Made by a program: the position numbers and the translations under genes | Origin: Candidatus Cloacimonadota bacterium | GTDB lineage: Bacteria; Cloacimonadota; Cloacimonadia; JGIOTU-2; B8-G9 | Direction: 5' to 3' | NCBI GenBank assembly: GCA_003647765.1 | Contig: QMNM01000138.1 | Coordinates: 1-5,154, forward strand | DNA: 5,154 nucleotides | The notes under the pieces: generated by a model | What the model was told of the DNA's origin: nothing | Database searches by the model: none | Seen by the model: only the letters and a program-made list of their open reading frames with translations | Part shown: piece after piece, positions 1 to 4,302 of the stretch | Layout of the letters: every line of letters starts with the position of its first letter | Numbering within the stretch: the stretch's first letter is position 1

Positions 1-121
1 AATCGCCATGTGCAGTAAATATTTTAGTATTATACGCTAAGTCAGCTTCATTTGATATTAAAGCTTCTTCTAATTGTATTCTATGTTGTAACAATGGTAT
101 CACACCATATCCTCTGGCCAT
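1..121 (-). CDS. Unknown protein, N-terminal 40 residues only (cut by left window edge)
   Basis: The minus-strand frame from an ATG at 121-119 is open to the left edge and begins MARGYGVIPLL, followed by a probable helix (QHRIQLEEAL). The ATG overlaps the end of the upstream gene (stop at 100-102) by 22 nt and has only a weak ribosome-binding site. An alternative start is the GTG at 103-101, which forms a GTGA overlap with that stop codon and sits behind a GAGGA sequence at about 110-114. The ATG is preferred because the residues between the two starts look like normal coding sequence, but either is possible. The other two minus-strand frames are closed here, so this is the only continuation of the operon. 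I do not recognise the family and the C-terminal part is missing, so no function is proposed. Confidence 0.6.
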   Translation of the reverse strand, partial: MARGYGVIPLLQHRIQLEEALISNEADLAYNTKIFTAHGD

Positions 122-402
122 AGCTCTGTTGCTAACTCAAGAGCAGGTCTATCAGCTTCGGTAAAGACTATTTCTACTGATGGAATGCCTTGGGCTTGAA
201 GTCGTTTGAATCTTCGCACAAGCCACCTTGCTTTGGCTGTTTCTCTGTTCTCAAAAATATTATTCATTCTCTTGAAAACGGTTTTGCTTGTGTAGACCAA
301 AATAGCAAACATACCCTCGCTTTTTTCACCAGTAAAGATACCATCAATTATTGAACCTGCTCCCTCTAATACGGAAACAGTATCGCCTTGATTAATCATC
401 AT
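100..402 (-). CDS. Unknown 100-residue protein
   Basis: This complete ORF of 100 residues starts with two consecutive ATGs (402 or 399) that overlap the end of the upstream membrane-protein gene by 8-11 nt. The Shine-Dalgarno sequence is poor, so translation is probably coupled to that gene. The N-terminal half is mixed hydrophobic and small residues (VSVLEGAGSIIDGIF), compatible with a beta-rich fold. Residues 52-69 form a strongly basic amphipathic helix (RETAKARWLVRRFKRLQ). The protein ends in a helix finishing LWPEDMV, which resembles the C-termini or C-terminal segments of three other proteins in this window. There is no signal peptide, membrane segment or catalytic motif. The basic helix could bind nucleic acid or a partner protein, but nothing identifies the family and no function is assigned. 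Confidence 0.75.
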   Translation of the reverse strand: MMINQGDTVSVLEGAGSIIDGIFTGEKSEGMFAILVYTSKTVFKRMNNIFENRETAKARWLVRRFKRLQAQGIPSVEIVFTEADRPALELATELWPEDMV

Positions 403-934: not shown

Positions 935-1303
935 TTATAGTCCTTTTAATAGTAGTTCTGGGTATTCGTCGTATAATGTTTGTGTGAGTTCCAAAAAGTG
1001 TTTGTAATCAACAAAAGTATTATCTCTGAAATCTTTAATGAAATAATGACACCAAGTAACCTCTGCATTCTTTTTATCAGTAAAAAGAAATAGATTTTTA
1101 ATGAAACCGTCCTCATCATGGTCAATCTTAATTGGGAATGAGTTATACCAATTTCCATCTTCTGATATTTGAACATTGAATGTTCCATTAAACTCTTCAT
1201 CATCAATCAATACATGTACCAATTGGCATTTACCACCACCTTGATAGATATACCAATATTTTTCTGTTGAGTCTATATCGGATTTATGGATTTTACTTAG
1301 CAT
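935..1303 (-). CDS. Unknown acidic 122-residue protein
   Basis: This is a soluble protein with no membrane segment or signal peptide. Its composition is acidic and aromatic-rich, with an internal Asp-rich stretch (KIDHDEDGF, residues 59-67). Alternating hydrophobic patterns through residues 16-90 suggest a beta-sheet fold followed by a C-terminal helix (about 101-118) ending DEYPELLLKGL. The ATG overlaps the upstream gene by 11 nt and the ribosome-binding site is weak (TAGAAG), which fits coupled translation. The downstream membrane-protein gene starts immediately after its stop codon. Its two Cys residues (26 and 85) do not form a recognisable metal motif. I do not recognise the family. Confidence 0.75.
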   Translation of the reverse strand: MLSKIHKSDIDSTEKYWYIYQGGGKCQLVHVLIDDEEFNGTFNVQISEDGNWYNSFPIKIDHDEDGFIKNLFLFTDKKNAEVTWCHYFIKDFRDNTFVDYKHFLELTQTLYDEYPELLLKGL

Positions 1304-1571
1304 TGATTGCTTCTACAAATTCAACAAATTCATTGAAATCAGTTGAGATAACATCCTCTGGATATTTACTTTTAACCATCTCTATGATGTCCTGTCCATA
1401 TTTTTTAAGAACAGGAAGTGCTGCTTTAGATACCACCGTTACTTCATGTTGAAGATTAAATACCGTTTGAGAATATTCAATTTCTTCTTTACTGTCCTCA
1501 ATCACTACTTGCATATTACCATAATAAATGTTCTTTTCATCTCGTGACGATTCAATGTTGTTCAATATCAT
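1293..1571 (-). CDS. Unknown acidic 92-residue protein
   Basis: A small soluble protein: residues 12-50 alternate hydrophobic and polar residues as expected of beta strands, residues 51-68 look like a helix (ALPVLKKYGQDIIEMVKS), then comes KYPEDV, and the C-terminus is acidic with an EFVEFVE repeat (residues 81-87) encoded by a short 9-nt tandem repeat. It starts 3 nt after the stop codon of the CoaD-like gene. An AAGGT ribosome-binding site lies in the last codons of that gene, so the two are probably co-translated. It overlaps the next gene by 11 nt. No family is recognised. Its tight linkage to the adenylyltransferase gene is the only contextual clue. Confidence 0.75.
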   Translation of the reverse strand: MILNNIESSRDEKNIYYGNMQVVIEDSKEEIEYSQTVFNLQHEVTVVSKAALPVLKKYGQDIIEMVKSKYPEDVISTDFNEFVEFVEAINAK

Positions 1572-2080: not shown

Positions 2081-2087
2081 CTCCTTA
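2081..2087 (-). promoter_or_regulatory. Strong Shine-Dalgarno site of the CoaD-like gene
   Basis: TAAGGAG lies 5 nt upstream of the ATG at 2075. It also contains the TAA stop codon of the upstream gene (2085-2087), so a ribosome terminating there sits directly on the next initiation site. It is one of the best-matching ribosome-binding sites in the window and fixes the start of the CoaD-like protein. Confidence 0.8.
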
Positions 2088-2588
2088 GATGAATTCTTCT
2101 GGATATTTTTCCAGAATTGTTTTTATTTGTCCAATCAATGTAGCAATTGGTATATGAGATTTTTCTGAATATGTTGTTAGAAAATCAACTGTTGCCATAT
2201 CCAAATCTTTTTCAGATCTAAATACTTTGTGATGGTTTGGCATACCTATCTCAAAAATATAAGGTTTGGTGCTTGTTATTTTTCTGCCTGGAACCATCAT
2301 TTCCCAAGTAACTAAACCATTTTCTGTTTCAACAACATAAGAATCATTAGCAAATGCCATTCTAACTCTACCTTCAAGAACTGGTGTTCTTAAAGATACT
2401 TGTATCGTTACTATATCATCTGTTTTTAACTCAAAGAAGTTTTTGTCAGTTGGAGGGATTTCTCCTTGAACCATTTTTTGTTTTCTTTCATCTTTTTCTC
2501 TATGACGAACTTGTTTCTTCATATCTTTGAACTCGGTTGCCTCTATACCAAAGTATTCATACACTTGTTCGTCATGCATATTAGCCAC
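2085..2588 (-). CDS. Unknown 167-residue protein, GTG start
   Basis: The protein is soluble. Residues 15-40 form a highly charged helix (including KKQVRHREKDERKQK), followed by a Pro-containing linker (GEIPPTDKN). A probable beta-rich domain spans residues 51-115 (FFELKTDDIVTIQVSL, then VRMAFANDSYVVE). The C-terminal region is helical and ends ILEKYPEEFI. The likely start is GTG at 2588, with AGGA four nt upstream and an 8-nt overlap with the preceding gene. An in-frame ATG at 2579, one nt after the upstream stop, would shorten the protein by three residues but has a poorly spaced site. It sits between the small membrane protein and the CoaD-like gene. I do not recognise the family. The basic helix might contact nucleic acid, but this is a guess. 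Confidence 0.78.
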   Translation of the reverse strand: MANMHDEQVYEYFGIEATEFKDMKKQVRHREKDERKQKMVQGEIPPTDKNFFELKTDDIVTIQVSLRTPVLEGRVRMAFANDSYVVETENGLVTWEMMVPGRKITSTKPYIFEIGMPNHHKVFRSEKDLDMATVDFLTTYSEKSHIPIATLIGQIKTILEKYPEEFI

Positions 2589-2796
2589 TTAATCCTGCGA
2601 ATATACCCTCTAATAGTATAAACAGTAAACAACCATCAAAAGCAGAACTTGAACCTCGTTCAGAACTTGCTCTAATTGTTATATGTATGATACCCGCTAC
2701 TAAAAGTCCAACACCAACACCTATTGCCATAGCTATAGAAGTTCCATACCCAAATGCACCAATTAGAAGTCCAATTACTGTGAAAAATAAATACAT
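2581..2796 (-). CDS. Small Gly-rich membrane protein, 71 residues
   Basis: Nearly the whole protein is hydrophobic: segments at about residues 2-17, 20-41 and 53-69, the middle one Gly-rich (IGVGVG) as in closely packed helices. A short polar loop (RASSERGSSS, residues 42-51) lies between the second and third segments. The start chosen is ATG at 2796, which shares its A with the kptA stop codon (TAATG), implying translational coupling to kptA. The frame extends upstream to a TTG at 2811, but that start has no ribosome-binding site and lies inside kptA. Small size and multiple helices are compatible with a holin-like, exclusion or host-membrane-acting phage protein. No family is recognised and there is no adjacent lysis enzyme to support a holin. 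Confidence 0.75.
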   Translation of the reverse strand: MYLFFTVIGLLIGAFGYGTSIAMAIGVGVGLLVAGIIHITIRASSERGSSSAFDGCLLFILLEGIFAGLSG

Positions 2797-3380
2797 TATC
2801 TTAATAACCAAGCTGGAATAGCATCGGCTAAATAAACACCATTTTTTGATTTATAGAACACCACACCATCATTCATAGCTTCAATTGTTGAAATCTTAAA
2901 TATGTGTGTTTCGGTATCTTGCTTTAATCTACGATCACCAACTTCATTCGCTGTTTCAATCTCATCAGAAAGATGAACATGTTGTCGGTTCATTTTCACC
3001 AAGCCCTCTTTCTTAATTGCTTCAACAAATCTTGAATTAGTTCCATGATATAACCAATTTGGAACTTCTCTTGAAGAAAGTGGAGTATAATCCAATTTAA
3101 CATGCTTTAATTTTTTATTGTGACCTTGGTTTGCTCTAATTTTAGTTTTATCGTCATTGAACGAATATCTACCTGGATTACCATTTTTAGCTTTAGAATC
3201 TTGTGAAACAACTATTTCTAAATCTGATAGTTCAACAAATTTACCTTGTTTTTGCATTCCAATCATAAGTTCTGTTACATCAGCCCAACCTTGTGAATCT
3301 AATGTGATACCAATAATTGATGGGTCGTGTCTTAATATTTTACTTAGAAATTTGCTAATATGTTCTTGTGATTTGTTCAT
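2796..3380 (-). CDS. kptA: NAD+-dependent RNA 2'-phosphotransferase (KptA/Tpt1 family)
   Basis: Tpt1/KptA enzymes remove an internal RNA 2'-phosphate. The phosphate attacks NAD+, nicotinamide leaves, and the ADP-ribosylated intermediate resolves to 2'-OH RNA plus ADP-ribose 1'',2''-cyclic phosphate. The 194-residue protein has the whole family pattern. An N-terminal winged-helix-like lobe carries SKFLSKILRH (9-18) and LDSQGWADV (27-35). KIRANQGH lies at 80-87 and YHGT at 111-114, followed by MNRQHVHLS at 130-138. The four residues of the family's Arg-His-Arg-Arg active site are all present: Arg17, His18, Arg82 and Arg132, with the NAD-binding HGT motif intact, so it should be active. The start is ATG at 3380 with AAGGA five nt upstream. 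An extension to a TTG at 3464 would add residues unlike the family. It heads a run of coupled genes after the window's only sizeable intergenic gap. In a phage, RNA repair after host ribonuclease attack is a reasonable role, but this is inferred. Confidence 0.94.
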   Translation of the reverse strand: MNKSQEHISKFLSKILRHDPSIIGITLDSQGWADVTELMIGMQKQGKFVELSDLEIVVSQDSKAKNGNPGRYSFNDDKTKIRANQGHNKKLKHVKLDYTPLSSREVPNWLYHGTNSRFVEAIKKEGLVKMNRQHVHLSDEIETANEVGDRRLKQDTETHIFKISTIEAMNDGVVFYKSKNGVYLADAIPAWLLR

Positions 3381-3420: not shown

Positions 3421-3433
3421 AAAGGGGCTTTAA
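3419..3433 (-). repeat. Short perfect hairpin over the stop codon of the zinc-protein gene
   Basis: TTAAAG-CCC-CTTTAA is a perfect 6-bp inverted repeat with a 3-nt loop. It includes the TAA stop (3430-3432) of the upstream gene and abuts the longer kptA leader repeat. No U-run follows on the minus strand, so it does not look like an intrinsic terminator. It might be an mRNA-processing or regulatory element, or chance. Confidence 0.35.
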
Positions 3434-3681
3434 TGTGCAGTATTTTTTTGAGGAGGGTGGACAAATGTTTTTATCCAGTTGGCATAGCAGTCGTCACAAA
3501 TATCCATAGATACTCTATCCATATCAAATCGTGAACCGTAGCCGAAATCATGCTCCCATGTTTCTATATCAGATGCATATTCCACATGATCCCCTTCTAC
3601 TGTTTTACCACAACAATTACATGTTATGGCAACTATCTTCTCTTTTTGGATTGTTTCTGTGTGTGTGATTATTTCCCTCAT
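3430..3681 (-). CDS. Small probable zinc-binding protein (CxxC/CxxC)
   Basis: The protein has 83 residues. A short Thr/Glu/Lys N-terminus precedes ITCNCCGK (19-26) and, after a 37-residue loop, DICDDCY (60-66). Cys21, Cys24, Cys62 and Cys65 form two CxxC knuckles able to hold one zinc ion; Cys23 is an additional Cys. The loop contains the segment HDFGYGSRFD (44-53), an F-GYGS-x-x-D pattern that I recall from small uncharacterised zinc-ribbon-like proteins of phages and bacteria, though that recollection is not verified. The ATG shares a base with the upstream stop (TAATG) behind a GGGA-rich stretch. It is the last gene before the 49-nt gap. No catalytic residues are evident; a structural or protein/nucleic-acid binding role is possible. 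Confidence 0.78.
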   Translation of the reverse strand: MREIITHTETIQKEKIVAITCNCCGKTVEGDHVEYASDIETWEHDFGYGSRFDMDRVSMDICDDCYANWIKTFVHPPQKNTAH

Positions 3682-4005: not shown

Positions 4006-4302
4006 TTAGTCGTGACTTTTTAAGAAGCCATCTTTGAAATCACTTGGTTCTGTGTAAGCCTTATGGCTGTATATTTTCGGTCCATAATGTGTTAGAGTTT
4101 CAGTAATTAAGAAACTGATTTCTTCACCGTCTGGGTCAATACCTTTCCACTTTAATTGGTTTGACTCCAATCCTTCGGAATATACTTCGGTTGGACCTTC
4201 TACTACGGAAAATTCAATATTAATACCGCCACTGCAGTTGAATAATGTATCTCCAATGTTTATGTCTTTCAATTGTTTGTATGAATAACTGCCTACTTGC
4301 AT
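4006..4302 (-). CDS. Unknown 98-residue protein, probable paralogue of the gene at 4302-4571
   Basis: This soluble protein is probably beta-rich. It contains YSYKQLKDINIGD (6-18), EFSVVEGPT (30-38) and LKWKGIDPDGEE (50-61). The same order of short motifs occurs in the adjacent upstream gene product: an aromatic-rich start, KDxx(I/V)GD, FSV, a PT pair, a Trp-x-Gly and GEE. This suggests tandem duplication followed by strong divergence. The ATG shares a base with the preceding stop (TAATG) and has a strong AGGAGA site at 4309-4314. The KDxx(I/V)GD start resembles small SH3-like beta barrels, but that resemblance is weak. No function can be assigned. Confidence 0.78.
   Translation of the reverse strand: MQVGSYSYKQLKDINIGDTLFNCSGGINIEFSVVEGPTEVYSEGLESNQLKWKGIDPDGEEISFLITETLTHYGPKIYSHKAYTEPSDFKDGFLKSHD

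Follow-up and report, generated by a model that had tools for sequence, protein, structure and literature searches.

A predicted KptA/Tpt1 RNA 2'-phosphotransferase carried by a giant T4-like phage, with a possible role in RNA repair

What would a phage do with an enzyme that takes 2'-phosphates off RNA? Even for bacterial Tpt1/KptA, the natural substrate is an acknowledged open question (PMC6333775), and the preliminary description of the locus studied here, a KptA/Tpt1 gene in a phage-like array, offered three guesses for the phage enzyme: repair of RNA cut by a host nuclease, removal of a 2'-phosphate placed by a host defence, or ADP-ribosylation of RNA ends. The window that we analysed is 5,154 bp long and spans the whole of C164, one of the 360 contigs in its genome bin. 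All of its genes lie on the minus strand (Table 1).

The KptA/Tpt1 identity was confirmed, and the coordinates first given for the gene were exact, but it lies on the minus strand. This strand is open for 194 codons from an ATG, which is preceded by AAGGA, a plausible ribosome-binding site on direct reading of the sequence, while the plus strand there is rich in stops. The protein matched Pfam PF01885 (Tpt1/KptA) with an E-value of 4.4e-42 and 144.6 bits, over the cut-off of 26, along profile positions 2-176 of 177. PHROG 5470, 'RNA 2'-phosphotransferase', was matched at E 5e-56, and the best PDB match was 7kw8, the NMR structure of Runella slithyformis Tpt1 (E 4e-32). These E-values, together with the conservation described below, rule out a pseudogene or chance ORF at 2796-3380. 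Four NCBIfam 'equivalog' models scored the protein at 92-191 bits against cut-offs of 231-279, all missed, the best being PRK00819 with 191.1 bits against 239. Since these cut-offs were missed, we file the protein under PF01885 and not under an NCBIfam equivalog.

The Arg-His-Arg-Arg tetrad and the HGT motif claimed for this protein are indeed present, as R17, H18, R82 and R132 and as H112-G113-T114, the NAD+ motif. All of these residues, plus R150, are invariant in an alignment of 10 phage KptA proteins. Among 174 phage and cellular relatives, the R17 and H18 positions hold R and H in 172 (gaps in 2), the R82 position holds R in 172, with K in the other 2, and the R132 and R150 positions hold R in all 174. 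The NAD+-contacting HGT motif and R150 (arginines over the NAD+ phosphates) are thus invariant or nearly so. Moreover, the tetrad aligned with R18, H19, R68 and R121 of CthTpt1, which are essential in that enzyme (PMC6333775), and no active-site residue was misplaced.

An AlphaFold2 model (mean pLDDT 89.7, pTM 0.59) predicts a two-lobed fold, with a winged-helix RNA lobe and an ADP-ribosyltransferase lobe, and the 22 Foldseek matches below E 0.001 were all Tpt1/KptA, with TM up to 0.70. Because the pTM is 0.59 and the TM reached only this value, the placement of the lobes is less certain than the fold of each. The window gene is, as judged from sequence, a predicted NAD+-dependent RNA 2'-phosphotransferase of the Tpt1/KptA family. 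It is 24-36% identical, in fold alignments, to the solved Tpt1/KptA proteins (Runella 7kw8, C. thermocellum 6e3a/6ede) and differs from these cellular enzymes in being phage-borne and under the equivalog cut-offs. Compared with other phage KptA, it has two short insertions, at about residues 64-70 and 88-105.

The array around the gene had been called phage-like, and its synteny with a viral contig supports this. G040, the 290-kb relative of the window, is a T4-like viral contig of 289,880 bp, and nine window proteins have counterparts, with their order kept, within one 20-kb stretch of it. In both, the block runs from the hydrolase end through three small proteins, KptA, a small protein and CoaD to two more proteins. 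G040 encodes a T4-like Gp23 capsid, a Gp20 portal, a prohead protease and a baseplate gene, and also a CCA enzyme and a class II tRNA-synthetase domain. Because the window is syntenic with a bearer of T4-like virion genes, we regard it as a giant-phage fragment that was binned with a bacterial genome. A host chromosomal origin of kptA was rejected on account of this synteny and of the rarity of the gene in related genomes: a search of 39 relatives of the organism behind the bin gave one other KptA match only, and it was partial. The comparison with G040 detected no relative of the small hydrophobic ORF, and a search of the window for tRNAs or known RNAs found none. The window CoaD scored 127.3 bits with the TIGR01510 equivalog, above its cut-off of 103.3, and its G040 counterpart lies at 221068-221565. 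The full-length G040 counterpart of the truncated hydrolase (L023 17910-18800) reached 48 bits with PF23023 (Apyc1), missing the cut-off of 50, and the 78-residue fragment in the window gave no match to PF23023. Note that an Apyc1-like hydrolase, just under the Pfam cut-off, belongs to the KptA block and that G045, a second viral contig considered below, carries the anti-CBASS Acb1.

Table 1. Features of the window, with the identity of each protein to its relative in G040
Feature	Position	Strand	Identity to G040 relative	Basis
Small protein with near-terminal YPELLL tail	935..1303	-	30%	
Small protein	1293..1571	-	42%	synteny
CoaD (pantetheine-phosphate adenylyltransferase), 166 aa	1575..2075	-	64%	TIGR01510 and synteny
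Protein without assigned function, between KptA and CoaD	2085..2588	-	36%	
Small hydrophobic ORF, slightly overlapping the KptA end	2581..2799	-		
KptA/Tpt1 RNA 2'-phosphotransferase (predicted), 194 aa	2796..3380	-	59%	profile searches, alignments, model
Small protein rich in Cys (PHROG 5435), immediately upstream of KptA	3430..3681	-	62%	
Conserved small phage protein	3681..3992	-	59%	
Conserved small phage protein, PHROG 11618	4006..4302	-	62%	
Metallo-beta-lactamase-fold hydrolase, last 78 residues, truncated by contig end	4917..5153	-		

KptA was present in 93 phage records. In a tree of 147 KptA proteins, a sample skewed because its cellular loci are the best 80 of many matches, the copies of the window, of G040 and of one more viral contig formed a single group (support 99/93), and viral and cellular copies were intermixed, with 19 label changes. 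Since the viral copies are scattered among the cellular ones, kptA genes move, and the window copy could be a cargo gene, acquired from bacteria by chance and under weak or no selection. We consider this very unlikely: the reading frame is unbroken, all active-site residues are conserved, and the position of the gene is kept in a block syntenic with a relative that shares just 59% identity. Jumbo phages have already been described as carrying KptA, with a predicted role in 2'-phosphate clean-up during RNA repair (PMC7824862, PMC9503650), and by itself the window gene is one more jumbo-phage example. It shares with those copies (e.g. Erwinia Ea35-70, Clostridioides phage LIBA6276) the protein family and a large-genome phage as carrier, but its branch is separate and well supported, and it is at most 43% identical to the annotated copies of the phage collection.

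The neighbours of KptA elsewhere bear on its substrate. At 50 non-redundant phage loci, the genes no more than two places from KptA included, in raw counts, RtcB (2), CCA/PolyA polymerase (2), NADAR (2), Macro (2), Nudix (2), RNA ligase (1) and Thg1 (1), and the RtcB, RNA ligase, CCA and Thg1 neighbours were confirmed one by one. In 3 cases an RNA ligase lay 5-6 genes away. Because RNA ligase is as frequent or more frequent at this distance than adjacent, which counts against a repair role, we take the association with repair genes to be one of phage lineage and region and not of strict adjacency. Near bacterial KptA, among the best 80 of many matches, a NADAR-like or calcineurin-like phosphoesterase gene was often found, mostly in Bacteroidota.

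NADAR and Macro genes act on ADP-ribose, and their place beside KptA in some other phages would suit an enzyme that adds ADP-ribose to 5'-phosphate RNA or DNA ends, cap-like, and so blocks or protects ends during infection. In support of this, some Tpt1/KptA proteins, such as Streptomyces SCO3953, have the activity in vitro, although its physiological relevance was termed unclear in the same work (PMC11833690). Moreover, the intact tetrad recognises a junction by its 3'-phosphate and 2'-phosphate and promotes the second step of 2'-phosphate removal (PMC6333775), and we hold ADP-ribosylation of 5' ends to be distinctly improbable as the role of the window protein. Erasure of an internal 2'-phosphate, set on intact tRNA by a host (or phage) kinase, is another unlikely role, in which a host mark would be undone. 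Archaeal KptA erases the U(p)47 made by ArkI, the archaeal, E. coli and yeast KptA/Tpt1 do so in cells, and active homologues of ArkI are present in some bacteria (PMC9095486); the intact tetrad and NAD+ motif of the window protein would allow it. However, the known role of this mark is in thermophiles, and the KptA neighbours in other phages indicate RNA breaks and ends.

The other neighbour to be weighed is CoaD, two genes from KptA both in the window and in G040, which hints that the true substrate could be a small molecule, with a tie to coenzyme A metabolism or to CoA-capped RNA. In a CthTpt1 crystal, CoA did fill the site for RNA, but its binding needed a cysteine that is not conserved, and the C46S mutant no longer bound it (PMC6333775). 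CoA carries a 3'-phosphate, not a 2'-phosphate. The phage collection has 64 records with CoaD-like genes, but tblastn detected no CoaD relative near the other phage KptA loci examined. We therefore judge a functional link between KptA and CoaD possible but weak, and a small-molecule substrate extremely improbable.

Next, we consider the rest of the bin, of which the contigs examined are a selection reached through searches. A C-terminal tail, [YFH]PExx[ILV], closes 23 of the 324 G040 proteins, against 0.26 expected, and 30 proteins of G045. By comparison, it was seen in 0/784 ORFs of cellular KptA loci and in 4/1868 ORFs of other phage KptA loci, all four being one repeated sequence. It ends many small, otherwise dissimilar phage proteins (G040 loci L013-L027; G045 loci L236-L247), and one idea is that it serves as a targeting or packaging tag. 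Tails of this type also occur in the window, on 2085-2588 (-), as YPEEFI, and on 100-402 (-), and on bin contigs C20, C85, C243, C245, C310 and C320. A DNA pattern for the tail gave 9 sites in the bin and 0 with a reversed control; it pointed to C20, C85, C243, C245 and C320, where further tails and several genes related to those of G040 or G045 were seen, and it also matched C9, a contig without phage features. Both G040 and G045 contain relatives of C85 and C245. The tetranucleotide profile of the window scored 0.93-0.95 against the phage-like bin contigs and 0.83-0.925 against C1-C3, long-gene contigs that lack the tail, a modest gap. We infer that the window, C20, C310 and the other tail contigs of the bin come from one phage.

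These contigs hold the repair candidates. It had been argued beforehand that the ligation pathway responsible for such 2'-phosphates is usually missing from phages, a generalisation that fails here: C20, reached via a ligase search and the tail and not via genes in common with the window, encodes an RNA ligase (PF09414, 75 bits), and G045 has an uninterrupted relative that is 69% identical. The C20 gene (L035 1402-3582) is fractured by an intein, with the N-part after EKLDGAN in the first ORF, the C-part before SCLKG in a later one and further ORFs between the halves, of which one looked nuclease-like on inspection; at this point the G045 ligase has no such break. A membrane sensor-like gene on C20 (L035 4424-5647, -) is 40% identical to a G045 protein. 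C310, found by a kinase search and carrying one tail, encodes a protein with HD and AAA_33 P-loop kinase domains, truncated at the contig start, which is an end-healing candidate. Single-protein viral scans with this protein and with the window CoaD gave no relatives; such scans detect close relatives only. The single RtcB match of the bin lies on C4, which is host-like (few, long genes, no tails), and it was set aside as not phage-like.

G045, a viral contig of 224,467 bp from the same metagenome as G040, was found by a scan with the C20 ligase. Its GC content is as low as that of G040 (27.9% against 27.4%), the two have only six genes in common at E 1e-10, and a search of G045 for a Gp23 capsid gene found none. 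G040 and G045 may both derive from a single genome larger than 500 kb; possibly they are two different phages. G045 encodes the RNA ligase, two RlaP, Thg1, NADAR, SIR2, NAD synthase and Acb1, and ARAGORN found 22 tRNAs. A tmRNA gene is also present (L245 1437-1818, -; tag ANTKLYIPQTARVAA; Rfam 115 bits). Moreover, a Pnkp-Rnl protein (L244 8620-11310, +) matches Rnl at residues 513-886 and a phosphoesterase at 234-478, with a weak match of residues 10-192 to the kinase region that known Pnkp proteins have, so that one chain appears to combine a kinase, a phosphoesterase and an Rnl. A Hen1 gene lies close by (L244 5589-6842, +). This recalls the Pnkp1-Rnl-Hen1 complex (PMC4411300), whose separate Rnl the Rnl part resembles; unlike that system, the window's bin gave no Hen1 match, and Hen1 was found in G045 only. 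T4-type Rnl1 (PF09511) had a single match, in another phage record (G043), and none in the bin or G040.

A bacterial cassette brings similar genes together. In Ferruginibacter (L098), about 4 kb holds NADAR-like, KptA, calcineurin phosphoesterase, HD plus kinase and RNA ligase genes, named by sequence motifs and similarity. The window's bin likewise has KptA, an HD plus kinase protein and an RNA ligase; the ligase is 36% identical to its Ferruginibacter counterpart, and the HD plus kinase protein aligns weakly with its own (blastp 4e-5). In the bin, by contrast, the genes are spread over three contigs (C164, C310, C20).

Because this lineage carries RNA-joining and RNA-end-healing genes, the phage KptA probably aids the repair of RNA cut by host defences, and with moderate confidence we propose that it performs NAD+-dependent 2'-phosphate removal within the RNA repair kit of a giant T4-like phage. 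Among the three initial guesses, repair of host-nuclease damage is thus the one best supported, by the lineage's repair genes and by the KptA neighbours elsewhere, ahead of mark removal and end modification. Host ribotoxins would cleave tRNA to leave 2',3'-cyclic phosphate ends, end-healing enzymes would open these, and KptA would remove the 2'-phosphate remaining at the RNA end or ligated junction, after which the RNA could be ligated, 2'-O-methylated or used. Following the chemistry of the family, R17, H18, R82 and R132 would hold the 2'-phosphorylated nucleotide and the C-terminal lobe the NAD+. We infer the enzyme activity, the RNA substrate and the residence of KptA with the repair genes in one phage.

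Several observations weigh against the repair role. The window neighbours are CoaD and small proteins without assigned function and not repair genes, and the NCBIfam cut-offs were missed. The five viral records whose KptA is closest to the window protein gave no match to 2H phosphoesterase (PF02834), nor was a Macro domain found in these records or the bin, so the usual downstream steps were not seen in the records searched. Pnkp- and HD-Pnk-type end-healing phosphatases may themselves take off 2'-phosphates, in which case KptA would be redundant.

Finally, KptA might be a dedicated step of a complete repair line in this phage lineage, in which it would free the 2' position of a cut or rejoined RNA for methylation by a Hen1-type methyltransferase and for sealing by the ligase, an extension that we regard as improbable. 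If true, the mended RNA would resist the same ribotoxin, and bacterial and phage Tpt1 would gain a natural substrate. A phage lineage in which KptA apparently occurs with an RNA ligase, enzymes for end healing, tRNAs and genes against host signalling is a concrete setting that can be reconstituted, and the bacterial cassette with KptA, HD-kinase and RNA ligase side by side adds a second one. Because this repair context is supplied, the substrate question, whether the enzyme acts on a 2'-phosphate left where broken RNA has been mended, becomes testable.
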